Source: Aquipluma nitroreducens (GTDB lineage Bacteria > Bacteroidota > Bacteroidia > Bacteroidales > Prolixibacteraceae). From it: a stretch of DNA of 64,000 nucleotides. The position numbers and the translations under genes are program-made. Under the pieces are notes generated by a model. The model worked only from the letters and a program-made list of their open reading frames with translations, did not search any database and was not told where the DNA came from. The DNA lies in contig NZ_AP018694.1 of NCBI RefSeq assembly GCF_009689585.1, positions 2,867,001 through 2,931,000 on the forward strand. Reading direction: 5' to 3'. Shown one piece after another: positions 7,347 through 33,704 of the stretch. Within the stretch, counting starts at the first letter, position 1, and each line of letters begins with the position of its first letter.

Positions 7347-7463
7347 CTAACTATTTTGTATAAAAAACAATGCAAAATGCAACGGAAGGAAAAATAATGC
7401 GTCTTTATATCCGACAGCCTCATTTAAACAATTAAAAGACTTGCTGTGAAAATTTTGACTACT

Positions 7464-8444
7464 ATGAAAATGTTCTCATTCGTTGCAATGATCATATTCC
7501 TGTTTTCGCTGAATGGATTTGCGAAGGATGACCAGCCAACCATTACGAAAACTTTTGAAATGAAAGAGCCTGGTTCGCTCAATGCATCATCTTCGGGTGG
7601 AGGTGTAACTGTTCAAACACACGATCAACCCCAGGTAGTTATACAGGCATTTGTGCGAAAAAACAATAATCTTTTAGCGCCAAATGACCCTATGGTAAAA
7701 GAAGTTCTGGAAGCATTCGATGTGAATTTTTCAAAAAACGGTTCAGCCGTCACTGCAATTGTTGAACGCAAGATGCGTATGAATTTCTGGAACAACTTAG
7801 GTATTTCATTAACTATTATTGTTCCGAAGGAAATGTCGTGCAAGGTTTCGTCAAGCGGCGGTGGTGTAAAAATTTCAGGAGTGAAAGGAACGCACGATTT
7901 TTCGAGCAGCGGTGGTGGCGTACACCTGGAAAATGTAAGTGGTACCACTGAAGCCAGATCTTCGGGCGGTGGTGTGCATGTGACGAACCAGAACGGAGAT
8001 GTTCGTTTAAGTTCGAGCGGAGGCGGTGTAACCATAGAAGATGCCCAGGGAAGCGTTTTTGCCCAAAGTTCAGGTGGTGGCGTTAGCCTGAAGAATATCA
8101 AAGGAAATGTAGAAGCCAGCAGCAGTGGTGGCGGAGTAAATGTTTCAGGAGAATGTGGTTCGGTAAAAGCTAAATCCAGCGGTGGTTCTGTTCATGTCGA
8201 CATCAAAAACCTAAGCAAGAATTTAACCCTTGAATCGAGCGGTGGCGGAGTTGACGCACTCATTCGCAATGGCAAAAATCTTGGTCTCGACCTGGATTTG
8301 CAATCCGATAGGGTAAATATTGACCTTCAGAATTTTTCAGGAAAAGCGGAGAAAGACCGTGTAAAAGGAACGATGAATAAAGGCGGAATTTCTGTTTATA
8401 TGCATGCCTCCGGAGGAAACGTAAATGTTCGGTTTGAAGAGTAG
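7464..8444 (+). CDS. Exported DUF4097-like beta-solenoid protein with SSGGGV repeats
   Basis: 326 residues from ATG 7464 (a GTG six codons upstream is also in frame). A signal peptide (about residues 1-20, ending NGFAKDD) precedes a domain built on a recurring SSGGGV motif. Eight exact copies, one SSGGSV and one terminal ASGGNV occur at roughly 17-20 residue spacing, with the first two separated by about 75 residues of non-repeat sequence. The layout fits a right-handed beta-helix of the putative-adhesin (DUF4097) type, with one turn per repeat and the glycine corner stacked. Such proteins are often encoded with ECF sigma/anti-sigma pairs and permeases in Bacteroidota. Location is probably periplasmic or cell-surface. 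It lies downstream of the permeases and may share their operon. Molecular function unknown. Confidence 0.8.
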   Translation: MKMFSFVAMIIFLFSLNGFAKDDQPTITKTFEMKEPGSLNASSSGGGVTVQTHDQPQVVIQAFVRKNNNLLAPNDPMVKEVLEAFDVNFSKNGSAVTAIVERKMRMNFWNNLGISLTIIVPKEMSCKVSSSGGGVKISGVKGTHDFSSSGGGVHLENVSGTTEARSSGGGVHVTNQNGDVRLSSSGGGVTIEDAQGSVFAQSSGGGVSLKNIKGNVEASSSGGGVNVSGECGSVKAKSSGGSVHVDIKNLSKNLTLESSGGGVDALIRNGKNLGLDLDLQSDRVNIDLQNFSGKAEKDRVKGTMNKGGISVYMHASGGNVNVRFEE

Positions 8445-8747: not shown

Positions 8748-9653
8748 TCAGGCTTTTTCCCACTGTTCTTTCATCAATTTCACTGCGGCGGGTAAGGTTA
8801 TTTTTGAATCGCCAACAGATCCACATTCGAAACTCACGTAATCCTGATAAGCGATTTCTTTCAGACCTCGGAATCCATTGATGTAATTATCAGCTTCGCC
8901 GTCTTCTCCCGGCATTTTACGCCGTTTGCGGCTTGCAATGTGCACATGGTGCAGGTAATCACCAGCAGCCAGAAATGCGGCACGGTCGTTGGTTTCTTCC
9001 CAGGTCATGTGCCAGAAATCGCCCATAACGGCTGCTCCGGCTGAATTTACATCGCGGATAATGGATGCACCATCGGCTACCTGTCGGCAGAAATAGCATT
9101 CCTGACGATTCAACGGTTCGAGCAAAATGCGGGTTTTATGCTGAAGCGCAAAGTCTCCCAATTCTTTCATTTGCCCAAGCAAAAGTTCCCGGGCTTCTTT
9201 GTCGGGCAACGATTTTTGGTTGTTGAAAGCGGGGACGAAAATCAAACCAGTTGAACCAAGCGCTCCGGCAGCTTCGATGATAACCTTCATCGAGTCCATG
9301 CATTTTTTCTGAATGGCTAGATCGTCGGCAATTAGCCAACCTTCGAAACCGGCACATATTGCACTGGTTTTGATGTTTCGGTTTTGCAGGGCCTTTTGTA
9401 TTTCTTCCACTCTTTTTTCAAGTCCGCCACCCCAAGGTTCAAAACCGACAATTCCCAACGACTCCATGAAATCGAGCTTTTCGGCAAGTGTTTTACCCGG
9501 GGCAACTCCTTCCTGACATGAAATCTTTAATTGAACTGTTTTATTTTGTGAGGAGTTTGATTCGCCCTTGAAAGAAGAGAACAGGCCGCCTGATGCTGCT
9601 AATGCAGCACCAGAAACGGCAGTTCCTAAAAAAGATCGTCTGTTAAGCGGCAT
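8748..9653 (-). CDS. Tat-exported xylose-isomerase-like TIM-barrel protein
   Basis: 301 residues. The N-terminus has a twin-arginine signal (NRRSFLGTAVSGAALAASGG). The body fits the AP_endonuc_2 / sugar phosphate isomerase-epimerase TIM barrel, with metal-ligand candidates in the stretches LLEPLNRQE (Glu), MGDFWHM (Asp, His), HVHIASRK (His) and VSFECG (Glu). Family members are isomerases, epimerases or, in 3-keto-sugar pathways, lyases; the reaction here cannot be read from sequence. It is the last gene of a three-gene operon, starting 3 bp after the stop of the Gfo/Idh/MocA gene. The Tat signal implies folding, possibly with metal, before export to the periplasm, which is notable because many homologues are cytoplasmic. 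Confidence 0.8.
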   Translation of the reverse strand: MPLNRRSFLGTAVSGAALAASGGLFSSFKGESNSSQNKTVQLKISCQEGVAPGKTLAEKLDFMESLGIVGFEPWGGGLEKRVEEIQKALQNRNIKTSAICAGFEGWLIADDLAIQKKCMDSMKVIIEAAGALGSTGLIFVPAFNNQKSLPDKEARELLLGQMKELGDFALQHKTRILLEPLNRQECYFCRQVADGASIIRDVNSAGAAVMGDFWHMTWEETNDRAAFLAAGDYLHHVHIASRKRRKMPGEDGEADNYINGFRGLKEIAYQDYVSFECGSVGDSKITLPAAVKLMKEQWEKA

Positions 9654-9656
9654 ACC

Positions 9657-11069
9657 TTATCGTGTTTGGTTTCCCTGTGGCGTTCCTGCAATGTGAATAA
9701 ATTCGGGCAGTTTAAATTCTTTTCCTGCACCGTATCCTTCTTTGGCGGCAGCCATGCTTTTGGTCATATCAATATCTTTCGGCATAAGATCGAGCGGCGA
9801 AGCAGTCATTTCGTCCCAAGTAACTTTCTTTCCGGAGTAAGCCGATTCACGCCCCATGATGGCAGCCATGTTGGCAACAGCCGTTTCAGATGCCTGTTCA
9901 ATCGGTTTTCCGGCACGGATATGGTTAATCCAGTTCACGTGTTCCAAGGTGTATGGGTCGGTCTGTTTGAACTTGGTTTTTTCAGCTTCGTAGTCGAATT
10001 TCCATATTTCGTTGCCTTTCAGGTCTTTGATAATATGCCCGTCGGAAGTCCATGAACCTTTCGTACCCTGGATAAATTCCCAAACGCCACCCTCTGTTCC
10101 GTTGATCTGGCGGCAGGTGCTGTGAATGTGAATACCATTTTCCATTTCAAAATCGACACTGAAATTGTCGAACTGGTTACCGGTAACACGGCGCTGGCGT
10201 GAGCCGAATCCCAATGCTGATTTTGGTTTCAAGCCCGAAAACCAAGTGAATACATCCAGGTTGTGAACGTGTTGTTCAACAATATGGTCACCTGAAAGCC
10301 ATCCCCAGTTTACCCAGTCGCGGATCATCCATTCCAGATCCGACCATTGCGGGTTGCGATCTTTGTACCAGAGCATACCACCACACCAGTAAACCGTTCC
10401 ACCGGTTATTTCACCGATAGCTCCGTTCATGATTTGTTCGTACGAAGCTACATAATCGCGCTTATGGTGGCGTTGCGTGCCGGTTACCACGCATAGCCCT
10501 TTTGCTTCGGCTTGCTTGGCTGTGGCTACGATGGTGCGGTAACTTACCGGATCAACGCAAATCGGTTTTTCGAGGAAGCAATGTTTGCCTTTTTCAACTG
10601 CATACTTGAAAATTTCGGCGCGGAAATTGGGTGGTGTAGCGGTAATAATTACGTCCACATCGCTGTCAATAACTTTTTGATAAGCGTCGAGTCCCACGAA
10701 TTTTTTGTCGGCTGCAATGTCGATATTTTTCTCTTTTTTCAGATTTTCAGCTAAACTTTCCAGACGGTCAGCGTAAGTATCGCCTAAAGCAACGATAGTA
10801 ACATTATCGGCCGCGTTGAGGAAATTAAACGCTGCGCCAGAGCCTCGTCCGCCACAGCCAATTATCCCGGCTCTCAGCGGTTTGCCATCTGCAGACTTAT
10901 CAACCAGATTAGGTAAGTAATAAGAGCCTGACTCTTTGAGAGGCTGTACTTTTGGAGTACTACTGCTACACGATGCTAAAGTTGCAACTCCTCCTGTACC
11001 AATTGCGCCCAATGCCCCGGCTAAAGCCGAGCTTTTCAGGAATGAACGTCTGTCAACACCTTTTTTCAT
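9657..11069 (-). CDS. Tat-exported Gfo/Idh/MocA family oxidoreductase (probable lipoprotein)
   Basis: 470 residues. A twin-arginine motif (RRSFLK, residues 7-12) precedes a hydrophobic stretch and a lipobox-like LASC ending at Cys34. The NAD(P)-binding Rossmann domain shows GIIGCGGRGSG (about residues 68-78), and the family motif EKP occurs in HCFLEKPICVDP. The C-terminal domain has the usual alpha/beta dehydrogenase fold with VDFEMENGIHIHSTCR. Export with a bound nicotinamide cofactor is known for this family (glucose-fructose oxidoreductase type). The likely reaction is oxidation or epimerisation of a sugar or glycoside hydroxyl. It is the middle gene of the operon (36 bp from the upstream cytochrome fusion, 3 bp from the TIM-barrel gene), which suggests its electrons may feed the cytochrome. 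Substrate unknown. Confidence 0.85.
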   Translation of the reverse strand: MKKGVDRRSFLKSSALAGALGAIGTGGVATLASCSSSTPKVQPLKESGSYYLPNLVDKSADGKPLRAGIIGCGGRGSGAAFNFLNAADNVTIVALGDTYADRLESLAENLKKEKNIDIAADKKFVGLDAYQKVIDSDVDVIITATPPNFRAEIFKYAVEKGKHCFLEKPICVDPVSYRTIVATAKQAEAKGLCVVTGTQRHHKRDYVASYEQIMNGAIGEITGGTVYWCGGMLWYKDRNPQWSDLEWMIRDWVNWGWLSGDHIVEQHVHNLDVFTWFSGLKPKSALGFGSRQRRVTGNQFDNFSVDFEMENGIHIHSTCRQINGTEGGVWEFIQGTKGSWTSDGHIIKDLKGNEIWKFDYEAEKTKFKQTDPYTLEHVNWINHIRAGKPIEQASETAVANMAAIMGRESAYSGKKVTWDEMTASPLDLMPKDIDMTKSMAAAKEGYGAGKEFKLPEFIHIAGTPQGNQTR

Positions 11070-11105
11070 AATAGATAAATTTAAAAATTAGGATAATCAG
11101 TTTAT

Positions 11106-12656
11106 TTATTGAACTTTAATTGAATTGTCTGGCTCACAAACAACCCTGAACCCGATGGCTTTAACATCGGAATACCACCAGATGCTTTTAGGCTGTTGCG
11201 GGTCGGTTTTCAACCAGGCGTCGTGCTGGCTGTGGCTGCGGGCGGCAGCACGTACGTCGGCTGCATCCGAAGTATAATTGCCTCCGCGTACCACCCATTC
11301 CTCACCCTCGGTTACGAGTGGATTATTTACTTTCCCGCTGTTTTTTGCATAAGCGTCGGGGGTATAGCGGTCGGCACAGTATTCCATTACGTTACCCAGC
11401 ATATTTTTCAGGCCGAATGGATTAGGCTTAACCTCTTCAGGCAAATGCGTTTTGCCTTTACCATTGTTTTCATAAATGATGTACTGCGAAATCGGTTCAG
11501 TTTCAGGGCTAGAGATTTTTCGCCATAATCCTTTGTTGGAGAATTTATTTGGTTTACCGTCAAAGAAATACGGTGTTTCTGTGCCACCGCGTGCTGCATA
11601 TTCCCATTCGGCTTCTGTAGGCAGGCGGTATTTTTTGCCGGTTTTCTTCGAAAGCCACTGGCAGAAGGTTTCCGCTGCATAATGGGTCATGGTGATTGCC
11701 GGGCGATTGCCAAATCCCCAGTTTTGGTCAGGTCGCCCGTAAGGCGGGGTTGGGCCGGAAATGGCATCCACGTTCGGGTTGCTGTTGTTGGCATAAATTT
11801 GTTCAGGTGGGGTGCGTCCTTCGCTCATTGTGTTCCCGTAAAAGGCCCAGTACTCTTCCCAGGTTGTTTCCACTTCGGCCATAAAAAATGGGCTGACCGT
11901 AACCTTGCGCACCGGAGATTCGTCGGGCTGGTGGAAAGGTTCTTTTTCGGGGCTACCCATGTTGAAGGTGCCGCCTTTGATAGCAATCATTTTGAACGAC
12001 ACCGGTGTACCTGGAATCTGCTCGGTGTAGTCGGCAAATGTTGTTACGCTGGCTGGTTGTTCAAAAATGGCTTTCAAACTGTCGGTACCGTCGTTTTGTC
12101 CCGGTATGCCGGTCATCTTGCCATGTTTGTATTTCGGGTTATAATGTCCGGCGTCGAGGTGACAACTGATGCACTGCAAATCCAGTTTTTTCTCGTTATT
12201 TTCGTAGTAAAGGTGGGCAGCTATGCCTGCGTCCACTAAATCTTTCGGGAACAGGTTCTGGTGGCAATGCTTGCATGATGCATTCGGAATATATTTTACG
12301 GCATGTTCCAGTTCCGACTTCATCTCCCAGTTAAATTCAGCCGAATCTTTGAAAAGGTAACCGTAAAGATCGTTTATACCAAGTTTAGTTTTTGCCAGAA
12401 GGTAGCCTTGTCCTTTGGGCGGAAGGTGACATTCGACACAATGAACCTTGATTCCGCTTTTGTTGTCGAAGTGAGACGACAATTTCCAGGACTCGAAAAC
12501 GTGTGGATGAACATGGCACGCGGCACAAGACTCGTCGGTTGAAGTATATTCAATCACTTTATTTCCGGAAATGGTAATCAGAATTCCTACAACGAATGCG
12601 CAGGATAATAGGAGGAAGAGATGTTTACGAAAGAAATCTCCTGTCTTTTTTAGCAT
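11106..12656 (-). CDS. NapC/NirT-like tetraheme cytochrome c fused to a SUMF1 (FGE-like) domain
   Basis: 516 residues. One N-terminal membrane anchor (about residues 13-31) is followed by four c-type heme motifs: CAACH (44-48), CVECH (73-77), CKHCH (128-132) and CISCH (162-166). This is the NapC/NirT/NrfH quinol-dehydrogenase pattern. Residues ~220-511 form a formylglycine-generating-enzyme/SUMF1 domain (GGTFNMGS, RLPTEAEWEYAARGG, LGNVMEYC, VVRGGNY, GFRVVCE). The segment that carries the catalytic cysteines in true FGE reads DVRAAARSHS here and lacks them, so sulfatase maturation is unlikely and a binding or scaffold role is more plausible. It is the first gene of the operon. It probably passes quinol-pool electrons to or from the periplasm. 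This domain pairing is unusual. Confidence 0.85.
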   Translation of the reverse strand: MLKKTGDFFRKHLFLLLSCAFVVGILITISGNKVIEYTSTDESCAACHVHPHVFESWKLSSHFDNKSGIKVHCVECHLPPKGQGYLLAKTKLGINDLYGYLFKDSAEFNWEMKSELEHAVKYIPNASCKHCHQNLFPKDLVDAGIAAHLYYENNEKKLDLQCISCHLDAGHYNPKYKHGKMTGIPGQNDGTDSLKAIFEQPASVTTFADYTEQIPGTPVSFKMIAIKGGTFNMGSPEKEPFHQPDESPVRKVTVSPFFMAEVETTWEEYWAFYGNTMSEGRTPPEQIYANNSNPNVDAISGPTPPYGRPDQNWGFGNRPAITMTHYAAETFCQWLSKKTGKKYRLPTEAEWEYAARGGTETPYFFDGKPNKFSNKGLWRKISSPETEPISQYIIYENNGKGKTHLPEEVKPNPFGLKNMLGNVMEYCADRYTPDAYAKNSGKVNNPLVTEGEEWVVRGGNYTSDAADVRAAARSHSQHDAWLKTDPQQPKSIWWYSDVKAIGFRVVCEPDNSIKVQ

Positions 12657-12879
12657 AGATGGTTTAGTTTTTATTAATACAGCATTTTCATGTTATTCAA
12701 AATTAATAAAAATTAGGGCATGGCAATAGCCTGTTTTATTTCAAGAGCCAGTTGGGAACAATATTCCATGATAAAAATAGATTTGTCCATATGCTGGATG
12801 ACTATAAAGCAAAATTTGATGGAATCAACCGGGAGTTTATTTCCTTAAAATCGCATCAAAAAACAAATATTGGGAAGTC

Positions 12880-12912
12880 ATTGTTCATACTCTGAAAAGG
12901 AATATATCTTTG
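12880..12912 (+). promoter_or_regulatory. Candidate Bacteroidota promoter for the kinase gene
   Basis: A TATCTTTG element at 12905-12912 matches the TAnnTTTG -7 consensus, with ATTG at 12880-12883 at a 21-nt gap as a -33 element. It lies about 30 bp before ATG 12942, in the divergent region with the cytochrome operon (12657-12941). Confidence 0.45.
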
Positions 12913-12941
12913 AGCTTGTCAAAACAAATAAACCAACAACC

Positions 12942-14036
12942 ATGAATCTGGAACAAATAGCTGCAAAATTTCAATTGGAAGGAACTGTTGATCGGGTTGA
13001 ACCGATGGGAGAGGGGTTCATCAACGATACTTTTATTATTCGAACAAAAGAACGCGAAACGCCTGATTATCTTCTTCAGCGAAAAAATAAACGGATTTTC
13101 CATCCCATCCCTGCAATGATGGAGAACATCGAGAAGGTTTGCGCCCATATTAAAAAGAAAGTCTCTGAAAAGAATGGAGATCCGATGCGTGAAGCCATGA
13201 CCGTTGTTCGGGCAAAAGATGGGAAATTGTATTTTCAGGACGAGGACGATGAATTTTGGGCCGTTTGTGTGTTTATTAGCGACACCGTTGCCTATCAATC
13301 GGCAAAAACTCCCGAATTGGCTTTTCAGGGTGGAAAAGGGATTGGGTTGTTTCAGTCGATGGTTTCCGATCTGAAAGAGCCGCTCACCGATATTTTGCCC
13401 GGATTCCATAATATCCGTTATCGCTTTAACCAGTGGGATGCTGTGTTGGCCAAAGATCCGGTAGACCGGAAGGCAAAACTGTCCAGCGAAATTGCCTGGA
13501 TTGAAAGTCGCCGCGACAACATGCTCGACTTCTGGAAACTGGTTGAATCGGGTGAAATTCCGACTAGGGTCACTCATAACGACACTAAAATCAATAATAT
13601 TTTGTTTGACCTGAATGGTGAAGTTTTGTGCGTCATCGATTTGGATACTGTTTTGAATAGCACTTGTCTGAACGATTTTGGCGATGCTATGCGTTCGTAC
13701 ACCAATACCGGCGCGGAAGACGATGAAAATCTGGATGCCGTTTCGTGCGATATTTCGATTTTTGAAGGTTTTACTAAGGGCTATCTTTCGCAGGCAAAAA
13801 GCTTCCTGACTGATAAAGAACTGGAATACCTTGCTTTTTCGGCAAAATACATCACTTATGAACAGGTTCTGCGTTTTCTGATGGATTACATTGATGGCGA
13901 CAAATATTATAAAATCAAAAGTCCGGATCACAATTATCAACGAACCGTGGCCCAGTATAAACTGCTGACCAGTATGGAGGAACAATACGATGAAATGTGC
14001 CGGATTGTGCGCACTGTTGCTGCTGAGTTGGATTAA
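12942..14036 (+). CDS. APH-fold phosphotransferase, probable sugar kinase
   Basis: 364 residues from ATG 12942, chosen because it follows a promoter-like element and begins the conserved part. The protein has the aminoglycoside phosphotransferase/kinase fold: an N-terminal lobe with GEGFINDTF (nucleotide loop), a catalytic loop THNDTKINNILFD (Asp as base, Asn as metal ligand) and a DLDT metal motif (VIDLDTV). Bacterial relatives include N-acetylhexosamine 1-kinase and other anomeric sugar kinases, and this reading fits the glycan context better than drug resistance. No signal peptide, so cytoplasmic. It is followed by a CBM9-like gene and then the PUL sigma gene. The substrate is inferred, not shown. 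Confidence 0.8.
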   Translation: MNLEQIAAKFQLEGTVDRVEPMGEGFINDTFIIRTKERETPDYLLQRKNKRIFHPIPAMMENIEKVCAHIKKKVSEKNGDPMREAMTVVRAKDGKLYFQDEDDEFWAVCVFISDTVAYQSAKTPELAFQGGKGIGLFQSMVSDLKEPLTDILPGFHNIRYRFNQWDAVLAKDPVDRKAKLSSEIAWIESRRDNMLDFWKLVESGEIPTRVTHNDTKINNILFDLNGEVLCVIDLDTVLNSTCLNDFGDAMRSYTNTGAEDDENLDAVSCDISIFEGFTKGYLSQAKSFLTDKELEYLAFSAKYITYEQVLRFLMDYIDGDKYYKIKSPDHNYQRTVAQYKLLTSMEEQYDEMCRIVRTVAAELD

Positions 14037-16645: not shown

Positions 16646-16707
16646 AGATAATAAATTGAATGCTACGAACATTCAATTGAGTAATTAACTAATTGCACTA
16701 CAAATTT

Positions 16708-19700
16708 ATGAAAAAAATTTATGAATCAGGGGGAGGCATATGTCTCATTCCCAAAAAGCTCTTGTTGGTTATGAAACTAACTGCCTTTTTTATTGTGGTT
16801 CTAACGATGCAGGTTACGGCAACAGTTTATTCTCAGAATAAGAAGTTGTCATTGAACATGCAGGGAAACTCCATAAAGGAAGTGCTTCAGCAAATCGAAG
16901 CCCAGTCGGAGTACCGTTTTATTTACGAAAACGAGAAAGTGAATCTCGATACCAAAGTAAGTATCCGGGTAACCGACGAAGTGGTTGATAAAATTCTGAA
17001 ACAGTTATTTGAAAAGGATGGCATCAATTATTCGATAACGGATAATAACCTGATTTTGATTAATCCTTCCGAAAGACAGATGAAAAGTATTGGGAAAGAA
17101 TCAATCAATTTACAACAGCAAAAATCCATTTCGGGTAAAGTTACCGATTATACAGGAGCAACCTTGCCCGGAGTTTCAGTACTTGTGAAAGGTACAACTA
17201 ACGGAACTATAACTGATGAAAATGGGAATTATTCGCTTTCTAAAGTTGCTGATAATGCAATTTTGCAGTTTTCGTTTGTGGGGATGAAATCACAGGAAAT
17301 TTCAGTTGGGGGTAAAGCAATCATTAATGTTGCTCTTATGGAAGAAGCTATTGGAATAGAAGAAGTTGTTGCTGTTGGTTACGGGGTTCAGAAAAAAGCT
17401 AATCTGACTGGATCGGTTGACCAGGTGACCAGTGAGGTTTTTGAAAACCGTACAATGGCCAATCTTTCTCAAGGATTGAAAGGCGTTATGCCCAATCTGA
17501 ATATCCGTTTAATGGATGGTAAACCTAACCAATCTCCAAGTTATAATATCAGAGGAACCACCTCTATTGGACAGGGTGGTAGTGCATTAATTCTTATTGA
17601 TGGTGTAGAGGGTGACCCTAGCTTATTAAACCCAAACGATATTGCTAGTGTTTCTATGCTTAAAGATGCTGCTTCAGCCTCAATTTACGGTGCGAGAGGA
17701 GCTTTTGGAGTAGTACTGATTTCCACTAAGAATCCGACAAAGGGCAAAACAAGTGTGACCGTTACGTCAAATTATTCAATTAAAAGCCCGGTAGCGACTC
17801 CGGATTTTGTTACTGACGGTTATACATGGGTAAAAATGTTTTCAGAAGCTTTTTTGAATGGAGATGGTTCTTTCCCACAGAACATTAACAAAACCCAGAA
17901 GTTTTCGCAGTCTTACCTCGACGAGTTCAAAAAACGATCTGAGTCTGGACAGCCGTATAATCAAGTAGAGGTTGATCCGGTTACTGGTGAGTATGTATAT
18001 TATGGCAGTACTGATTGGTATGGATTGCTTTATAAAAAGACAACCAGTTCAACAGAAAATAATGTTACTGTTAGCGGAAGTAGTGAGAAAGCTTCCTATC
18101 TGGTTTCTGGCCATTTAAATACTCAAAATGGACTATTTCGCTACAATACTGATGATTATAATCTAAAAAACTTCCGGGCCAAAGGATCAATACAAGTATT
18201 CCCATGGTTTGTAGTTGATAATAACACCGATTATTCTGAGTCGAATTATCACAACCCTTTGAATGTTGGTGAAGGAGGTGGTATTTGGAGGAATATTGGT
18301 GATGAGGGTCACCCTTCAGGCACATTGTTCAATCCCGACGGTTCTCTGACAATGGTTGCTGCATATAATGTGGGCGATTTTTGGTATGGGAAGAATGGAA
18401 TTGATACTAAAAAGAGAGTAGTCAAAAATACCACTGGGTTTACATCCACTTTCTTTAATAATAAGTTTAGAGTAAAAGGGGATTTTACTTTTCGGAATAC
18501 AATTAATAATACGACACAGAGACGTGTTCAAGTACCCTATAGTTCAAAACCAGGAGTTACTGCTTTTGTTGGAACTACAACCAATGATCTAAGTTATGAC
18601 AAAAGGGAAACTCAGTATATTGCAACTAACCTTTACTCAGAGTACGAAAATAAGTTTAAGGATGCGCACTATTTAAAGTTTTTGGTTGGCTATAATTATG
18701 AAGAATCGACTTATCAGAGACTTGCAGTGCAAAGAAACGGTATTATTTACGAAGATGCTACAGACCTTAATTTAGCACTTGGTCAATCAATAACCACAGG
18801 GGGTGGATGGGAAAAATGGAATATACTTGGAGGTTTCTCTAGGTTGAATTATTCATTTAAAGACCGATACTTGATTGAGGTCAATGCCCGTTATGATGGT
18901 TCTTCCAAATTTCCCTCAACCCAGCGATATGCTTTCTTCCCATCAATATCTGGAGGATGGCGCTTGTCAAAAGAAGCTTTCTGGAATGTTTCGCCAAAAT
19001 TTCTGTCTGATGTGAAACTCAGGGCTTCCTATGGATCATTAGGAAATGGGAACATTAACTCTTACATCTATCAAGAGCAATTTAGTATTGCTCAGTCCTC
19101 AAACATACTTAACGGTGTAAAACCTCCATATACAAGCACCCCAAGCGTTCTTCCTGACGGAATTACATGGGAAACATCAACCACTACAGACCTTGGTCTG
19201 GACTTTTCGATGTTTGATAACCGCTTAAGTTTTGTTGGCGATATGTACGTTCGTAATACCACCAACATGTTTACGATTGGGTTAACTCTTCCTGCAACTT
19301 TTGGAGCAACAGCACCCAAGGGTAATTATGCCGATTTACTTACGAAAGGTTGGGAAGTTTCGGTTTTATGGCGCGATAAATTCAAGCTTGCTCAAAAACC
19401 ATTCAACTATGATATCAGGTTAACTCTTTCAGACAACACCGCAAAGGTTACACGATACAATAATCCAGACAAACTACTTTCTGATTATTATGAAGGACAG
19501 GTTATAGGAGAAATTTGGGGTTATGAAACAGAAGGATTTTTTACAGACCAGGCTGACATTGACTCGCACGCGAAACAAAGTCCTCAAATGAGGGCATCCC
19601 CAACAAACATCTGGTATCCTGGAGACATAAAGTTGAGGGACTTAAATAATGATGGATTTATCAATATTGGTGCAAATAAGGTATCAGATCCAGGCGACCG

Positions 19701-20268
19701 TAAAATTATTGGGAATAGCTCTCCGAGATATACTTTTGGGATAAATCTTGGTGCCGATTGGAATAATTTCTTTGTTTCAACATTCTTTCAAGGGGTTGGA
19801 AAACAGGACTGGTACCCGAGTACTGAATCTGAGTTTTTCTGGGGGCAATACAATAGACCATATAACAACATACCTAGTTTTCATCTTGGAAATATGTGGA
19901 CGCCCGAAAATACTGACGCTTATTTCCCAAGAACAATGTCTCGTGCTGCAAGCAATGCAACCACAAGGGAGCTTGGAGTTGCTCAAACCAGATATTTACA
20001 GAACGTTGCCTATATAAGGATGAAAAGTTTTCAATTTGGTTATAGCATACCTAAAAATTTGATTTCTAAGATCGGTGCGAATGAAATAAAGGTCTATTTT
20101 TCAGGTGAGAATCTTTGGTCATGGTCTCCTCTTTATAAGCTTGTAAAACATATTGATGTAGAGAATACAGGGCCGTCTGATCAGCTCTTTACGTCTAGTA
20201 ATGCAGGTGATGGTTATAACTATCCGATGTTAAAAAGTCTGTCATTTGGATTATCCGTAGCATTCTAA
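16708..20268 (+). CDS. SusC/RagA-family TonB-dependent transporter with STN signalling domain
   Basis: 1186 residues from ATG 16708. A signal sequence (about residues 15-43) is followed by an STN domain at about 45-130 (SLNMQGNSIKEVLQQIEAQ), which passes the signal to the FecR anti-sigma. Next come a carboxypeptidase-like CarboxypepD_reg domain (ISGKVTDYTGATLPGVSVLV), the TonB box region, a plug domain (LKGVMPNLNIRL, ASIYGARGAFGVV) and an outer-membrane beta-barrel ending in LSFGLSVAF with the terminal aromatic residue. It imports large oligosaccharides across the outer membrane with the SusD partner encoded 22 bp downstream. The glycan is inferred from the enzymes that follow. Confidence 0.95.
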   Translation: MKKIYESGGGICLIPKKLLLVMKLTAFFIVVLTMQVTATVYSQNKKLSLNMQGNSIKEVLQQIEAQSEYRFIYENEKVNLDTKVSIRVTDEVVDKILKQLFEKDGINYSITDNNLILINPSERQMKSIGKESINLQQQKSISGKVTDYTGATLPGVSVLVKGTTNGTITDENGNYSLSKVADNAILQFSFVGMKSQEISVGGKAIINVALMEEAIGIEEVVAVGYGVQKKANLTGSVDQVTSEVFENRTMANLSQGLKGVMPNLNIRLMDGKPNQSPSYNIRGTTSIGQGGSALILIDGVEGDPSLLNPNDIASVSMLKDAASASIYGARGAFGVVLISTKNPTKGKTSVTVTSNYSIKSPVATPDFVTDGYTWVKMFSEAFLNGDGSFPQNINKTQKFSQSYLDEFKKRSESGQPYNQVEVDPVTGEYVYYGSTDWYGLLYKKTTSSTENNVTVSGSSEKASYLVSGHLNTQNGLFRYNTDDYNLKNFRAKGSIQVFPWFVVDNNTDYSESNYHNPLNVGEGGGIWRNIGDEGHPSGTLFNPDGSLTMVAAYNVGDFWYGKNGIDTKKRVVKNTTGFTSTFFNNKFRVKGDFTFRNTINNTTQRRVQVPYSSKPGVTAFVGTTTNDLSYDKRETQYIATNLYSEYENKFKDAHYLKFLVGYNYEESTYQRLAVQRNGIIYEDATDLNLALGQSITTGGGWEKWNILGGFSRLNYSFKDRYLIEVNARYDGSSKFPSTQRYAFFPSISGGWRLSKEAFWNVSPKFLSDVKLRASYGSLGNGNINSYIYQEQFSIAQSSNILNGVKPPYTSTPSVLPDGITWETSTTTDLGLDFSMFDNRLSFVGDMYVRNTTNMFTIGLTLPATFGATAPKGNYADLLTKGWEVSVLWRDKFKLAQKPFNYDIRLTLSDNTAKVTRYNNPDKLLSDYYEGQVIGEIWGYETEGFFTDQADIDSHAKQSPQMRASPTNIWYPGDIKLRDLNNDGFINIGANKVSDPGDRKIIGNSSPRYTFGINLGADWNNFFVSTFFQGVGKQDWYPSTESEFFWGQYNRPYNNIPSFHLGNMWTPENTDAYFPRTMSRAASNATTRELGVAQTRYLQNVAYIRMKSFQFGYSIPKNLISKIGANEIKVYFSGENLWSWSPLYKLVKHIDVENTGPSDQLFTSSNAGDGYNYPMLKSLSFGLSVAF

Positions 20269-20290
20269 CCAATTCTTAAAATTTACTATT

Positions 20291-22054
20291 ATGAAAAGAT
20301 ATTTTTTACTAATTTTCCTTATAGCTACCCTTTTTACTAGTTGCGAATTGGAACAGGAACCGGTATCTACAGCTTCAAAATCGTCTGTTTTTGGCAGCCA
20401 GCAGGGATTAGATTTATATGCCAATTCATTCTATTCTATATTGCCTGGTCGATCAACAAATCTGGACGCCATGTCTGATTATATGGCGGTTAAATCAGTT
20501 TTTACATTTGTTCAGCAAGGTGCTTTCACATCAACGTTAAGCACTGGGTGGACATGGACTGACTTAAGGAATATTAATTACTTCATTGCAAATTGTAAAG
20601 ATCCCAAGGTTGCTCTTGATGTTCGGAAAAATTACGTTGCAATTGCCAAGTTTTTCAGAGCTTACTTCTATTTTGAAAAGGTAAAACGATTTGGTAATGT
20701 TCCTTGGATTGGAAAACCACTTGATATATCAGACGAAATTTTGTTTGGAGGACGTGATCCGCGCACTTTAGTTATGGATTCTGTTCTATCCGACATCGAC
20801 TATGCCTGCGCCAATATTAAATCAACAGTTGACCCAACACGCAGTCTAGTTACCAAATATGTGGCTTATGCCCTAAAGTCAAGGATTTGTCTTTTTGAAG
20901 GAACATTCAGAAAATATCATACGGAGTTGAACCTTCAAAATACAGCTTCTAATTGGTTGAATAATGCCGCAACTGCGGCTCAGGCAGTAATGGATGCCGG
21001 AATTTATTCGATTTATACAGCCGGAGGTGCGGGTAAATCATATCGGACTGTATTTACAAATGGTACTCCAGTCAACGAAGTAATGCTTGCCGCGATTTGT
21101 GACCTTCCATTATCCGTTCTTAATGATGCAAACTGGTATTGGACCAGTGGAACCTATGGTGACAAGGCCAGTTTTACAAGAACATTCATCAACACTTACT
21201 TGAATCTTGATGGAACTCCATTTACCAACAATCCTGATTATCAAACCATGGTATTCAAGGACGAAGTTAAAAACAGGGATTTAAGGCTCAAACAAACCAT
21301 CCGTCTTGGTGATTACAAAAGAACAAGCGGTGGGGTACAGGTTCCGGCCCCTCCTTTGTTTTCCTATACATTCACGGGTTATATGCCAATTAAATGGACC
21401 CTCGATGATATGTATTATGATACAAGAGATCTAAACATCAATTCCATTTCTGAATTCCGTTATGCTGAAGTGTTATTGAATTATGCTGAAGCAAAAGCTG
21501 AAGAGGGAACTCTGACTGACGCAGATTGGGCAAAAACTGTTGGTGTTCTTCGTACCAGGGGCGGTATTACTGGTGGAATATCTTCCAAGCCTACTCTTGT
21601 TGATCCCTATCTTGTTACAAATTATTTCCCGGGCATTACAGATCCTGTAATATTGGAAGTAAGAAGAGAAAGAGGTATTGAATTATGCCTTGAAGGACTT
21701 CGATTTGCCGATATTCTCAGATGGAAAAGAGGTGAACTTATGAATCAGGAATGGAATGGATTCTATGTTCCTGAACTAAAAACACCAATGGATTTGAATG
21801 AAGATGGTATTTTAGATGTTGCATTCTTCCAGGGGACAAAGCCATCGCCAGCAGTCTCAGGAGTTACTTATGTTGACGTTTCGCCTACTGCCAGCGGAAA
21901 AGTTAATTCTCAACTTCTTAAAAATGGCACAAGTGGTGAATTAACATGGATGAATAACATCACCAGAAAGTGGGAAGATAAAATGTACTATTACCCTATT
22001 CCGAAAACAGACCTGATCACAAATCCAAATCTTGGACAAAATCCGGGATGGTAA
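20291..22054 (+). CDS. SusD/RagB-family outer-membrane glycan-binding lipoprotein
   Basis: 587 residues. A lipoprotein signal peptide ends at Cys (LFTSCELEQEP). The body has the SusD-like TPR helices (VAIAKFFRAYFYFEKVKRFG, FRYAEVLLNYAEAKAE) and the C-terminal RagB region (LEVRRERGIELCLEGLRFADILRWKRGE, with YYPIPKTDL near the end). It forms the lid over the SusC channel and captures oligosaccharides. The gene follows susC directly and ends in a strong terminator (22089-22119), so the SusC/D pair may be more strongly transcribed than the enzymes downstream. Confidence 0.95.
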   Translation: MKRYFLLIFLIATLFTSCELEQEPVSTASKSSVFGSQQGLDLYANSFYSILPGRSTNLDAMSDYMAVKSVFTFVQQGAFTSTLSTGWTWTDLRNINYFIANCKDPKVALDVRKNYVAIAKFFRAYFYFEKVKRFGNVPWIGKPLDISDEILFGGRDPRTLVMDSVLSDIDYACANIKSTVDPTRSLVTKYVAYALKSRICLFEGTFRKYHTELNLQNTASNWLNNAATAAQAVMDAGIYSIYTAGGAGKSYRTVFTNGTPVNEVMLAAICDLPLSVLNDANWYWTSGTYGDKASFTRTFINTYLNLDGTPFTNNPDYQTMVFKDEVKNRDLRLKQTIRLGDYKRTSGGVQVPAPPLFSYTFTGYMPIKWTLDDMYYDTRDLNINSISEFRYAEVLLNYAEAKAEEGTLTDADWAKTVGVLRTRGGITGGISSKPTLVDPYLVTNYFPGITDPVILEVRRERGIELCLEGLRFADILRWKRGELMNQEWNGFYVPELKTPMDLNEDGILDVAFFQGTKPSPAVSGVTYVDVSPTASGKVNSQLLKNGTSGELTWMNNITRKWEDKMYYYPIPKTDLITNPNLGQNPGW

Positions 22055-22088
22055 AAAAGGGTATATAAAAAAGCAGTGTGATTATATT

Positions 22089-22124
22089 AAGATCCTGCAA
22101 AATTATTTTGCAGGATCTTTTTCT
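22089..22124 (+). terminator. Rho-independent terminator after SusD
   Basis: A perfect 14-bp stem (22089-22102 with 22106-22119) around a 3-nt loop, AAGATCCTGCAAAA and its complement, followed by T-rich sequence. Confidence 0.85.
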
Positions 22125-22154
22125 TATTGTATTTAAACAACCAATAAATCCGAG

Positions 22155-23021
22155 ATGAAACCAATAATTTATATTTTATCGTTCCTGTTGATTTTTCCAA
22201 TATTAGCAAGCGCTAAAAAATACGAATCAGCTAAGCAAAAAAACACAATTTCTTTCAATGTAATGACATACAATATCAGGATGAATACGTCTGAAGATGG
22301 CATTAATGCCTGGCCTTTAAGAAAAGATAAGGTAACAGGATTATTAAAATTCCATCAGCCTGATATATTTGGAGTTCAGGAAGCTTTACTTGAGCAAATG
22401 AAGGACCTTGAAAATGGATTGTCTGATTTTGACCATGTTGGAGTTGGCCGCGACGATGGAAAAACGCAAGGCGAAACTATGGCCATTTTCTTTCGCAAAT
22501 CAAGATTTGAGAAATTGGCAGATGGCACCTTCTGGTTGAGTGAGAATCCCGAAAAACCAGGAATTGGTTGGGATGCTGCCTGTAACCGCACATGTACCTG
22601 GGTAAGGTTAAAAGATAAATTAAGCAAGCAGACATTTTATTTTTTCAACACCCACCTCGACCATCGTGGTAAAATTGCCCGTGTAAATGGATCAAAATTG
22701 TTATTACAGAAAATAAGTGAAATAAATAACGAGAACCTTCCTCTAATTTTAACAGGCGACTTTAATTCTACTAAAAAGGATGAACCAATAAAGATTATTA
22801 ATGAAGTACTAGGTGACTCTAGAGAAAAAACTGAAACAGCGCCTTATGGCCCTGATGGAACAAGTGGCGGTTTTGATGTTAAACTTATGCCTCGAATAAT
22901 AGATTATATTTTTGTAAACAATAACGTCAGAGTATTACGATATGGCATTCTGTCTGATTCGTTCGGATTGTATTACCCATCGGATCATCTGCCTGTTTTT
23001 ACAGAAATGCAGATAAAATAA
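22155..23021 (+). CDS. Exported endonuclease/exonuclease/phosphatase (EEP) family hydrolase
   Basis: 288 residues with a signal peptide (IYILSFLLIFPILASA). The EEP fold is shown by MTYNIRMN, the catalytic Glu in FGVQEALLEQ, NTHLDHRG, the GDFNS metal/nucleotide motif and the C-terminal SDHLPVF His. Exported members in Bacteroidota act on phosphodiesters or phospho-sugars, and are common in polysaccharide utilisation loci without a proven role. It may remove phosphate groups from glycans or lipids. It sits just after the SusD terminator and before the GH51/GH43 enzyme. Substrate not known. Confidence 0.85.
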   Translation: MKPIIYILSFLLIFPILASAKKYESAKQKNTISFNVMTYNIRMNTSEDGINAWPLRKDKVTGLLKFHQPDIFGVQEALLEQMKDLENGLSDFDHVGVGRDDGKTQGETMAIFFRKSRFEKLADGTFWLSENPEKPGIGWDAACNRTCTWVRLKDKLSKQTFYFFNTHLDHRGKIARVNGSKLLLQKISEINNENLPLILTGDFNSTKKDEPIKIINEVLGDSREKTETAPYGPDGTSGGFDVKLMPRIIDYIFVNNNVRVLRYGILSDSFGLYYPSDHLPVFTEMQIK

Positions 23022-23045
23022 TTTTCCAGATTTTGGTGAATAAGT

Positions 23046-23075
23046 TCAGGTTCAATTTACTGAACCTGAGCTTAT
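23046..23075 (+). terminator. Weak hairpin, possible terminator
   Basis: TCAGGTTCA (23046-23054) pairs with TGAACCTGA (23061-23069). The tail is only mildly T-rich. Confidence 0.4.
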
Positions 23076-23329
23076 TCCGTTTGTCAACTTATTGAAGTTG
23101 GGTTGCTAAAGATAGGCCTTTTAGAAAGTATACATTCAGTCGATTAATTCTGAGCTATGTTGTTTTGGCATTTCTCGCTGGACAATGGATTTTTGTTATT
23201 TCTAAACGCATTTTGCATGATTTTGTAATAGTCTTCACATTAACATGGAATTAAATTGTTTCCCAGTTCGTTTAGCAAGGGAAAACTTATTCTTTATTGG
23301 GAATGAGTGTGTAAATAAATTAACGTCAT

Positions 23330-23360
23330 TTTGACGCTTCTAATTATTTCCCCATATTTG
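23330..23360 (+). promoter_or_regulatory. Candidate promoter before the GH51/GH43 gene
   Basis: TTTG at 23330-23333 and CATATTTG at 23353-23360 (7 of 8 to TAnnTTTG) are separated by 19 nt, the Bacteroidota -33/-7 spacing. It lies ~35 bp before ATG 23395. Confidence 0.4.
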
Positions 23361-23394
23361 TTGGCAATAACCCATTTACTAAACTGAACTCCTA

Positions 23395-26300
23395 ATGAAA
23401 CGAACTTTTCTATTCCTGTGCCTGATGGTACTTTTAGTTGGGAAGGCAACTTTTGGCGCTGTTACTCCAATAAGCAATCAGCCTGACTCCGTTTACCTGT
23501 TTTCCTATTCCACAGAAAAAAGTGCGGGTCACAGCGGACTATATTTTGCCTGGAGCGCCGATCAGAAAAACTGGACTTCCATTGGCCCGGAAATGCGTTT
23601 CCTGTTTAGCGACTATGGCCGCTGGGGAGTTGAAAAACGAATGATTACTCCCTTTTTATTTCAGTCGTCCAACGGAATGTGGCATTGTGTATGGAGTTTG
23701 AACGAACATACCGGAACGTTTGCCCATGCTGAATCGAAAGACCTGATATACTGGTATCCTCAAACCTATCCGGTTGTGATGACCGGGAATAATTGCCTTC
23801 GGCCTGAAGTTTCATTCAAAAACAAGCAATACCAGATTTCCTGGATCAGCAACAAGAGCGGAAGGGAAAAGGCTTTTTATGTTACTACAACCGACTTTAA
23901 GAACTACACTTCGGCAACAGAAATGCCCCTAAATAACCGCCTGAATTCCCGAAAAGAAGTAAATATTTCAGGAACAAAAGAAACTGGAGCAATACATAAA
24001 GTTGCCTGGGAACTCGTTGAAAATTTACTGAATAAACAGAAATTGAATGTTTATCGCGATCAATTAGGATCGGAAAATGCAAAGACCGATTCGGTTCGGT
24101 TTGCTTCATTAAAAAGCGTAGATGCAACGATCACCATCGACAATTCGAAAAGCAAAAAAATCAGTGATCTGCTGATTGGTGTTTTTTTCGAAGACATCAA
24201 TTATGCCGCCGATGGTGGATTGTATGCCGAATTGCTTCAGAACCGCGATTTTGAATTCGCGCTGAGTGATAAGGAAGGGAAAGATAAAAATTGGAATAGT
24301 ACCAAAGCCTGGCATTTAATTGGCGATGGCGCTACATTCACAATTGATTCGGTTTCGCCGATTCATCCAAACAACTCGCATTTCGCCGTGTTGAAGATTG
24401 AAAAAGCTGGAGCTGGATTGGTTAACGAAGGTTGGGATGGGATCGCTGTAAAAGCCGGCGACAAATACAACTTCTCCGTTTTTGCACGCAATCCGGATAT
24501 GAAAAGTAAAAAACTGCATATTCGGCTGACTGGCAAAAATGGTGAAATTTATGGCCAAACAATCGTCCAGACCAAAGCTTCAGGATGGAATAAACTGGAA
24601 GCCGTTTTGACTGCAACAATATCCGTTTCGGATGCTCATCTGGAGATTATTCCACAAACTTCAGGAACAATTGACCTAGATATGATTTCCCTGTTTCCGC
24701 AAAAAACCTTTAAGAATCATAAAAACGGGTTGCGTGCTGACTTGGCTCAGACGATTGCCGACATTCATCCAAGGTTCATTCGTTTCCCCGGAGGTTGTGT
24801 GGCTCACGGCGATGGGCTCGGCAATATTTATCGCTGGAAAAACACAGTTGGTCCGCTTGAATCGCGCAAACCGCAGAAAAATCTTTGGGGATACCATCAA
24901 TCGGCAGGTTTGGGCTATTACGAGTATTTCCAGTTTTGCGACGACATTGGCGCTGAACCACTTCCGGTGATTGCCGCGGGTGTTCCTTGCCAGAACTCGG
25001 CTACCGGAGGCGCCGGACAGCAAGGCGGAATCCCAATGTGCGACATGGACAATTACGTTCAGGATGTATTGGATTTGATTGAATGGGCAAACGGCGATGT
25101 GAAAACCAAATGGGGGAAACTTCGCGCCGAAGCCGGACACCCCAAACCATTCAACCTGAAATATGTCGGGATTGGTAACGAAGATCTGATCAACGATATT
25201 TTCGAGGAACGGTTTACGATGATTTACAAGGCGGTGAAAGAAAAGCATCCGGAGATTACGGTTATCGGGACTGTTGGACCATCATTCGAAGGAACCGATT
25301 ACGTGGAAGGTTGGAAAATCGCCACCAAGCTACAGGTTCCGATGGTTGACGAACATTATTATCAATCGCCGGGCTGGTTTATCAACAATCAGGACTACTA
25401 CGACAAGTATGACCGATCGAAATCGAAGGTTTATCTTGGTGAATATGCTTCGTGGGGAAGTACAATTTATAACGCACTTGCTGAGGCACTTTATCTGACC
25501 TCGCTGGAACGTAACGGCGATGTGGTGAGCATGACTTCGTACGCGCCACTGCTTGCCAAAGAAGGTCATACACAGTGGAATCCCGACCTGATTTATTTTA
25601 ATAACTCGGAAGTTGAACCAACCGTGAACTACTCGGTACAGCAACTTTATGGACAAAATTCAGGAGACACCTACCTGGCAAGCGACGTGAAACTTTCAGA
25701 TAAAAACGAATCCATTGGGAAACGGGTTGCCGTTTCGGTGGTACGCGATAGCAAAAGCAACGATCTGATCGTGAAACTGGTAAACATGCTTCCTGTTGCG
25801 GTAAAAGCAAATGTCATTCTGAACGAAGTGGATGAGATTCGTTCGACAGCGACCCGCACCGTGCTTACCGGATTGCCTGCCGACAAAAATGCAAGGCCGG
25901 TAACCGATCAAATTTCGGTAAGCGGCGAATTTCCATACAGCATGCCGGCCTATTCATTTACAGTAATCCGGATTAATCATGAAAAACGTCCTGCTGAGCC
26001 TAAATCTGATCTGTTGAAAAAGCAGAATGTATATTTTCAAACTGAAGCAAAGAAGATTTATTTACCTGTTAAACGAGGTGCTAATTTGAGCCGGTTTAAT
26101 CCTGAATTCAAAGCTGCGGAAGGTGTTTCGATAAGTCCTTCCGGAGTGCAGAATTTTGCGAAAGGTCCGGTAAATTATACGTTCAAATCAGGGGAAGGAA
26201 AAGAAATATACCAGGTTACAGCTTCGGAAGATCATAATCCGGTTTTGGAAGGTTTTTATGCCGATCCTGAAATTCTGTATTCAGAAAAAACCGGCAAATA

Positions 26301-27159: not shown

Positions 27160-27171
27160 AACGAACCAACC

Positions 27172-29127: not shown

Positions 29128-29206
29128 AATTCGGCACTTCTATTTTGACTGGCTTTATTGGTCTGAAGCCTAGGTTTAGATATAATGTTGTCAAATTTTT
29201 GTTTAC

Positions 29207-29237
29207 CCCTTTATCAATTTTGATAAAGGGTTTTTTT
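29207..29237 (+). terminator. Rho-independent terminator after GH127
   Basis: CCCTTTATCAA (29207-29217) pairs with TTGATAAAGGG (29220-29230), followed by seven T residues. Confidence 0.85.
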
Positions 29238-29305
29238 AGTTGTTTCGGCTTAAACTTTTATTTTTATGTCATCAATCCGTTGAAGTAAACCTAACCTAAC
29301 TTATT

Positions 29306-31285: not shown

Positions 31286-31467
31286 TATTAAATTACGTCT
31301 CGAAAACCGAACCCAAAATGAGTGGATCTGTCGGTAAAATCGATCAGTTCTTCGATTAAATTTTTTTGTGCTTTACAGTTATTCTAACTTTCTGCTGATA
31401 ATCAAACACTTTCTAGTGATTGTCAAAAGTTAAATTATTGCCTAATACAAACTGTAAATCAAGACCA

Positions 31468-33564: not shown

Positions 33565-33601
33565 GATATATCAGTTGATATTGGTGAGTAGAATGTTGCA
33601 G

Positions 33602-33640
33602 AATCCTCCTGGGCTTAAATACTCAGGGGGATTTGTTTTT
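33602..33640 (+). terminator. Rho-independent terminator after GH27
   Basis: AATCCTCCTG (33602-33611) pairs with CAGGGGGATT (33624-33633, one T-G wobble), followed by TGTTTTT. Confidence 0.7.
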
Positions 33641-33704
33641 GGCCGATGTACTCAAGAATTTCCGTTAAATTTCTACTTTTACCACCACTAAATCAAAATA
33701 AACC

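Follow-up and report, generated by a model that had tools for sequence, protein, structure and literature searches.

Among the described systems, two oxidise saccharides in the periplasm: the glycoside 3-dehydrogenase BT2158 of Bacteroides thetaiotaomicron, a Bacteroidales enzyme of Gfo/Idh kinship (PMC11300592, whose main text does not contain the word cytochrome), and the membrane-bound lactose 3-dehydrogenase LacABC of Caulobacter, which acts at C3 (PMC9007349, in the part consulted). A third point of comparison is offered by the carriers that ApbE flavinylates (FMN-bind, NqrB/RnfD, DUF2271, DUF3570, Flavodoxin_4 and FMN_red), extracytosolic proteins that hold flavin mononucleotide (FMN) on a Thr or Ser within a D-x-x-[ST]-G-A-[ST]-like motif (PMC8238504 and PMC11334425, likewise in part). 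The locus considered here lies in the genome of Aquipluma nitroreducens, a single contig of 5.7 Mb, within a stretch of 64,000 nucleotides (the window), where open reading frame (ORF) calls and Pfam bear out an operon previously predicted from the letters alone: three genes on the minus strand, at 8748-12656, encoding a NapC/NrfH-type tetraheme cytochrome joined to a SUMF1-like domain (FUS, 516 residues, 11106-12656), a Gfo/Idh/MocA oxidoreductase with a twin-arginine translocation (Tat) signal and a lipobox (GFO, 470 residues, 9657-11069) and a Tat-signal, xylose-isomerase-like TIM barrel (TIM, 301 residues, 8748-9653), with gaps of 36 bases between FUS and GFO and of 3 bases between GFO and TIM. 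The operon probably encodes an exported sugar dehydrogenase whose electrons would pass from a cofactor bound to GFO to an FMN borne by the SUMF1 domain, and from there through the hemes to menaquinone. With slightly more reserve, it also seems likely that this domain represents a new class of covalent flavoproteins of the FGE/SUMF1 fold, in which the cysteines have been lost, FMN would be attached to a Thr or Ser by a partly dedicated group of ApbE proteins, and the domain would act as an adaptor feeding the electrons of exported Gfo/Idh enzymes with bound nicotinamide adenine dinucleotide (NAD) to the respiratory chains of Bacteroidota, Verrucomicrobiota, Planctomycetota and Acidobacteriota, heme having been fused to it at least twice independently.

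The first line of evidence is the pairing of SUMF1 with GFO, which was followed in two sets of relatives. The named set comes from the best 80 of 529 relatives, of which 12 with no SUMF1 ORF above 180 bits were dropped, leaving 68 loci; the phylum set comes from a sample of 395 genomes and comprises the 55 rows that reach 250 bits (224.6 for the next in line), 53 of them fetched and 2 belonging to the window genome, with L222 dropped for having no called SUMF1 ORF and L223 being a 491-base fragment without neighbours. Both sets share some species, and the neighbour tests rest on longest-ORF gene calls. FUS relatives are found in 13 of the 13 genus genomes searched (the window genome counted), and full-length ones in Tannerella, Parabacteroides, Dysgonomonadaceae, Sunxiuqinia, Mariniphaga, Maribellus and metagenome-assembled genomes of Bacteroidales and Bacteroidetes. 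Full tetraheme fusions account for 18 of the 80 named loci. Because a same-strand GFO gene lies next door in 17 of these 18 (the exception is L096), and a second FUS-GFO pair, without TIM, exists in the same genome (G000:C1:2674993-2677879), the association of the two genes is not due to chance. Stand-alone SUMF1 relatives, 33-45% identical (38 aligned), come from Flavobacteriia, Sphingobacteriia, Chitinophagia, Verrucomicrobiota, Planctomycetota and Acidobacteriota, among others. A GFO relative lies within three genes of the family SUMF1 gene in 50 of 68 named and 45 of 54 phylum loci, and in 32 of the former and 41 of the latter the SUMF1 protein has no CXXCH. The core unit is SUMF1 plus GFO, the cytochrome and TIM being lineage-specific. 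The survey of operons lacking the cytochrome, on which the original prediction had staked its heme-linked scheme, has found many of them and speaks against the cytochrome being essential.

The same association is seen from the side of the oxidoreductase, since a GFO profile (E<=1e-80) had matches in all 24 genomes selected as carriers of the family and in 0 of 20 that lack it, the former picked from family-positive genomes and the latter being the first 20 listed without a match rather than a random draw. Among the 26 top-tier GFO rows (at least 597 bits), 22 adjoin a family SUMF1 gene (coordinates read by eye); the remaining four belong to G202, G154, G269 and G391, that of G269 having an ApbE gene about 80 bases away. 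In G202, a top-scoring GFO adjoins a SUMF1 gene from outside the family (L228, G202:C12:37523-40095), and the family SUMF1 of that genome is found elsewhere, without GFO. GFO relatives beside ApbE with no family SUMF1 next door were also observed, at G269:C1:7001277-7003531, G298:C80:11831-14047 and G187:C38:59926-62518, the ApbE of G187 being a fragment with a stop, about 1 kb from the GFO relative.

What kind of protein is this constant partner? The SUMF1-like domain spans residues 222-478 of FUS (11223-11993, minus strand), scores 136.3 bits with FGE-sulfatase (PF03781, cut-off 23.3), and has PvdO and the formylglycine-generating enzyme (FGE) as its top fold and sequence matches. With both of them it shares the fold and the SUMF1 core, and from both it differs in the absence of the FGE cysteines and in a family-specific D-x-x-x-x-[PA]-[TS] loop. 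In the alignment to the solved FGE 6MUJ the cysteine positions hold other residues, and at column 463 a Cys occurs in 0 of 57 aligned family members, as had been anticipated in the original prediction. A true formylglycine-generating enzyme was set aside, both active-site cysteines being absent, and FUS is classed as the fusion of a NapC/NrfH-type cytochrome with a SUMF1 domain that is not an FGE. The top matches would also suit a metal-dependent enzyme of the PvdO or EgtB kind that acts on the sugar product, with the hemes serving that chemistry; this is very unlikely, given that the FGE cysteines are missing and that both the flavinylation motif and the ApbE linkage described below would be left unexplained. 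The family domain was also seen inside much longer proteins, of 723 residues (L059:4684-6852) and 1249 residues (L205).

The feature that points to a flavin is a loop at residues 297-303 of FUS, DAISGPT (11748-11768, minus strand; NVDAISGPTPP with its flanks), in which Thr303 is the candidate FMN-bearing residue. The motif flavinylated by ApbE is D-x-x-[S/T]-G-A-[S/T], and a change of its Ala to Val leaves about half of the flavinylation (PMC12052999, in its section on the motif). Across the family, the loop follows [DE]-x-x-x-x-[PA]-[TS] with one exception, and in 115 non-redundant members column 297 holds D (108) or E (5), column 300 T (53), S (45), A (15) or P (1), column 302 P (99), A (14) or R (1), and column 303 T (63) or S (51) and no other residue. 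Column 303 is the sole match column made up wholly of Thr and Ser with both frequent, so a hydroxyl-bearing residue alone is found where ApbE would attach FMN. The exact D-x-x-[ST]-G-A-[ST] occurs in 10 of the 115 members (as DAISGAT, DGITGAT, DGVSGAT or DAVSGAT) and two further ones have Ser for Gly (DAISSAS and DGITSAS); all 12 of these Ala-type motifs sit in one alignment column. Allowing G or S at position 5, this amounts to 12 motifs in 48,468 family residues against 0.51 expected, an expectation taken from 6 matches in 566,986 residues of 1,539 neighbouring proteins. Five tetraheme fusions (L050, L053, L055, L056 and L096) carry the exact motif, which is absent from the phylum set, and neither the strict nor the relaxed form is found in 26 control SUMF1 proteins, a subset of the 78 non-family SUMF1 genes used in the ApbE test. 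Because Ala and Pro both occur among the tetraheme fusions (DAISGAT in L050, DAITGPT in L051), the alignment suggests that the two residues are interchangeable in the motif.

From these sequence patterns, we propose the SUMF1 domain as an ApbE substrate of a new kind. Like the known carriers, it would be extracytosolic, with a Thr or Ser in a comparable motif and with ApbE linked to it in relatives; unlike them, it has the FGE/SUMF1 fold, mostly Pro in place of Ala, and a Gfo/Idh sugar enzyme as its partner. A word search of the available parts of PMC8238504 and PMC11334425 gave no mention of FGE, sulfatase or Gfo, and one of the available part of PMC12052999 none of sulfatase, formylglycine or Gfo. 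In the open-access literature searched, no paper was found that joins flavinylation or ApbE with Gfo, SUMF1 or formylglycine, nor one that joins cytochrome, SUMF1 and NapC.

The second element of this proposal is the linkage of ApbE genes to the family. Within the same 24 genomes, ApbE lies at 3 kb or less from 9 of 26 family SUMF1 genes and from 0 of 78 other SUMF1 genes (Fisher p 1.1e-6, uncorrected for the kinship of the genomes; about 0.003 expected per locus), where ApbE and SUMF1 on separate contigs were scored as far and nine short rows, second pieces of genes already counted, were omitted. Within three genes, ApbE is found at 17 of the 68 named loci, of which six lack GFO, and at 19 of the 54 phylum loci, of which three lack it, and Pfam confirms it in both scanned cases (L061 and L063). 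In a midpoint-rooted tree of 63 ApbEs, a branch supported at 100/98 has 27 of the 35 adjacent ones on one side, and these come from Bacteroidota, Planctomycetota, Verrucomicrobiota, Acidobacteriota, Armatimonadota and Balneolota; seven other rows on that side (four scored as far and three labelled generic) are also from the SUMF1 search sets. The eight adjacent ApbEs on the generic side comprise seven that form a group of their own (its named members being Sphingobacteriaceae) and L061, which stands alone. The generic ApbEs on this side are 21 from the order of the window, and the contrast in the tree is partly a sampling effect.

Several observations weigh against the proposal and have to be set beside this evidence. 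The DAISGPT of the window has Pro for Ala and so departs from the strict ApbE motif, as do 99 of 114 rows, which likewise have Pro at that position; the Pro-for-Ala form is not mentioned in the motif section of PMC12052999; and the loop belongs to a low-confidence region of the AlphaFold model. None of the tetraheme loci has an ApbE within three genes, be it among the 18 named or the 4 from the phylum set, and none of the 12 loci with an Ala-type motif has one, against 17 of 56 Pro-type loci. Over all loci, ApbE is missing at this distance from 51 of the 68 named and 35 of the 54 phylum ones, and the sole ApbE of the window genome is about 1.17 Mb off and groups with the generic ones. The presence of ApbE at genome level was set aside as a test, being uninformative: the gene occurs in 21 of 21 genomes, whether or not they have the family. 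Furthermore, 18 of the 68 named loci and 9 of the 54 from the phylum set have no GFO within three genes (some of them at contig ends), so SUMF1 may have other partners, and CXXCH proteins are not enriched beside stand-alone SUMF1 (12 of 558 near vs 11 of 592 far).

Might the neighbouring ApbE then modify another, unrecognised substrate, the loop being merely structural? The prevalence of Pro, the minority of loci with ApbE nearby and its absence from the Ala-type loci would all agree with that. It is distinctly unlikely, however, since the strict motif was found in no other protein within five genes of SUMF1 in the ApbE-bearing loci, ApbE stands beside SUMF1 even at the six named and three phylum loci without GFO, and the Ala-type motifs converge on a single column. 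One reading of how the two forms are distributed is that lineages relying on a general ApbE would keep GA[ST] and those with an ApbE of their own would drift to P[ST], an idea with which the window, having the Pro form and only a generic ApbE, fits poorly. As a separate observation, six flavobacterial-type loci (L073, L077, L090, L105, L174 and L175) have a family SUMF1 without neighbouring GFO; in several of them the genes downstream encode a small protein that is secreted and, by eye, YceI-like, an ApbE, a protein of about 780 residues with two CXXCH, or a Tat-type protein, which may form a further set of partners for this SUMF1.

In FUS, the carrier would be joined to hemes. The NapC/NrfH domain, residues 12-175 (12132-12623, minus strand), scores 97.6 bits with Cytochrom_NNT (PF03264, cut-off 24.1) and has one predicted membrane helix at residues 8-37 and CXXCH motifs at residues 44, 73, 128 and 162; the curated profile, the four motifs (counted correctly in the original prediction of a membrane cytochrome) and the N-terminal helix place it among the NapC/NrfH cytochromes. 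The mean predicted local distance difference test score of the AlphaFold model of FUS is 80.4. In an alignment to NrfH (2J7A) that is weak (E 0.0047) and calls for caution, K89 and D96 match NrfH K82 and D89, which we take, in both numbering and role, to be the quinone-site residues, and H50 aligns with a Met that is presumably the ligand of heme 1; all three are invariant in 19 of 19 tetraheme rows. The Lys and Asp support a quinone-linked cytochrome domain. FUS thereby resembles the NrfH and NapC quinol dehydrogenases in its single membrane helix, its four c-hemes and the aligned quinone-site pair, and differs from them in His50 at the presumed place of the Met and in the fused SUMF1 domain. 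Unlike in NrfH and NapC, where electrons come from the quinone, we infer that they would probably flow toward it.

Tetraheme fusions are not the only kind. In six named proteins that lack the NrfH part, SUMF1 is preceded by one or two CXXCH (L060, L071, L078, L081 and L088, from Verrucomicrobiota, and L109, from Acidobacteriales), and the three of them that were scanned, all from Verrucomicrobiota, contain one or two copies of PSCyt1 (PF07635); GFO is within three genes in one of the six and ApbE in two. Because NrfH-type and PSCyt1 are different Pfam families, heme has, judging by domain content, been joined to this SUMF1 domain more than once, which points to electron transfer through it. 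In a flavin-free scheme, the reduced cofactor of GFO would reduce heme directly and SUMF1 would only dock the enzyme or bind sugar. The regular neighbourhood of tetraheme fusion and GFO, the non-canonical motif of the window and the lack of an ApbE nearby are in line with such a scheme, which is still unlikely: SUMF1, not heme, is the constant partner, and the column of only Thr and Ser and the ApbE linkage would go unexplained. The original prediction had drawn a chain of this kind, from sugar through Gfo-bound NAD and heme to quinone. Its export, its dehydrogenase, its quinone-type cytochrome and its TIM kinship hold up and the chain is plausible, but it took SUMF1 for a bystander and the proposed central flavin carrier was missing from it.

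At the other end of the chain, GFO scores 52.6 bits with GFO_IDH_MocA (PF01408, cut-off 24), C-terminal domains being recognised as well. Residues G71, G73, E167, K168, H269 and D272 are present in 47 of 47 rows and P169 in 46, and they make up what we take to be the Rossmann Gly motif, EKP and HxxD, which together with Pfam place the protein in Gfo/Idh/MocA. Its closest solved relatives by sequence (DgpA, glucuronide-3-dehydrogenase and myo-inositol 2-dehydrogenase), with inositol dehydrogenases, RgNanOx, GFOR, glucuronide-3-dehydrogenase and DgpA among the 50 fold matches shown, support a protein of the dehydrogenase kind. It differs from BT2158 in being far below the NCBIfam cut-off of the BT_2158 glycoside 3-dehydrogenase equivalog (33.4 against 750 bits). 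The twin Arg is kept in 47 of 47 aligned rows and the lipobox Cys in 18 of 18 tetraheme-linked ones (the window and 17 more) and 0 of the 29 remaining rows, a pattern that would suit an enzyme anchored at the site of its partner; the predicted export signals are supported in this way, and, because of the universal Tat motif, the use of free cytoplasmic NAD looks unlikely.

GH109 glycosidases and GFOR recycle NAD within one catalytic cycle, and GFO might in principle do the same, leaving no net electrons for the hemes. The exported Gfo/Idh fold and the presence of GFOR among the fold matches are compatible with such a redox-neutral enzyme, which is nonetheless highly improbable in view of the constant pairing with SUMF1, the two kinds of heme fusion and the absence, by title, of GH109 among the 28 PDB sequence matches and the 50 fold matches shown. 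At L049-L052, GFO is followed by a second Gfo/Idh gene and by a further one, which Pfam identifies as ThuA in L050, the sole locus scanned. LacABC, in turn, is presumably a GMC-type enzyme with flavin adenine dinucleotide (FAD) and a cytochrome c subunit, unlike an NAD-dependent Gfo/Idh enzyme with SUMF1. At L099:6098-13137, SUMF1, GFO and a TIM barrel are closely preceded by a GMC oxidoreductase (Pfam) with a small protein on either side, the two having similar N-termini, and FAD-type and Gfo/Idh-type sugar oxidation systems seem to stand side by side.

As for TIM, it scores 108.9 bits with AP_endonuc_2 (PF01261, cut-off 31.1) and is very close to PDB 3KWS (E 5.8e-118), which is only a putative sugar isomerase; it reaches no NCBIfam equivalog cut-off. 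Its kinship to the 3-keto-D-glucoside 4-epimerase 6WN6 (E 2.4e-21) agrees with the keto-sugar role originally predicted, as far as homology goes. In 7 of the 18 named tetraheme fusion loci the pair is followed by a TIM gene with 51-60% identity, and because of this the three-gene form is one variant among the loci; TIM as a core part of the operon was set aside for the same reason. After TIM, in Tannerella and Parabacteroides, there is a conserved protein of 242-288 residues as called (with the stretch IPVINRFGIRLGLG; L041:13856-14581, L040, L042 and L045), for whose L041 copy Pfam gives nothing at E<=0.001.

Taken as a sequence of events, GFO would fold with bound NAD(P) before Tat export and be lipid-anchored afterwards, and it would oxidise a glycoside or sugar, probably at C3, retaining the reduced cofactor. 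ApbE would fix FMN to Thr303 of the SUMF1 domain, where the reduced cofactor would donate a hydride to it. Bound NADH releases its electrons as a pair and each heme accepts a single one, a mismatch that is usually bridged by a flavin; the FMN would split the pair, and single electrons would reach menaquinone through the four NrfH-like hemes. By their potentials, the flow from NADH through flavin to menaquinone is downhill. The TIM barrel would epimerise or isomerise the resulting keto-sugar.

The surroundings of the operon have features of their own. Divergently from FUS there are genes for an APH-type kinase-like protein (12870-14036, plus strand, with an in-frame ATG at 12942; ORF call and Pfam), which adjoins FUS in three of the four genus loci inspected (L011-L013 and not L014), and for a CBM9 protein (Pfam); past them lie sigma factor-, anti-sigma factor- and SusC-like genes (by eye), plus SusD. 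The adjoining saccharide locus, at 16693-35519 of the window on the plus strand, has SusC-like (by eye), SusD, GH127, alpha-galactosidase (Melibiase_2) and GH35 genes and may hint at the substrates of the operon. On the other side, at 7446-8444 (plus strand), a Toastrack DUF4097 protein with many SSGGGV-like repeats is encoded. A pattern search found no Bacteroidetes-type promoter upstream of FUS, and the window as a whole has 4 matches against 3.1 expected.

If the proposal is true, a flavin borne by SUMF1 would explain how exported NAD-dependent sugar dehydrogenases, a widespread group, renew their cofactor outside the cytoplasm, and one more fold would join the known ApbE substrates. A role would also be suggested for the many non-FGE SUMF1 genes that lie beside Gfo/Idh genes. 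In anaerobic Bacteroidales of the gut and the environment, the electrons of sugar oxidation would then reach the quinone pool directly.

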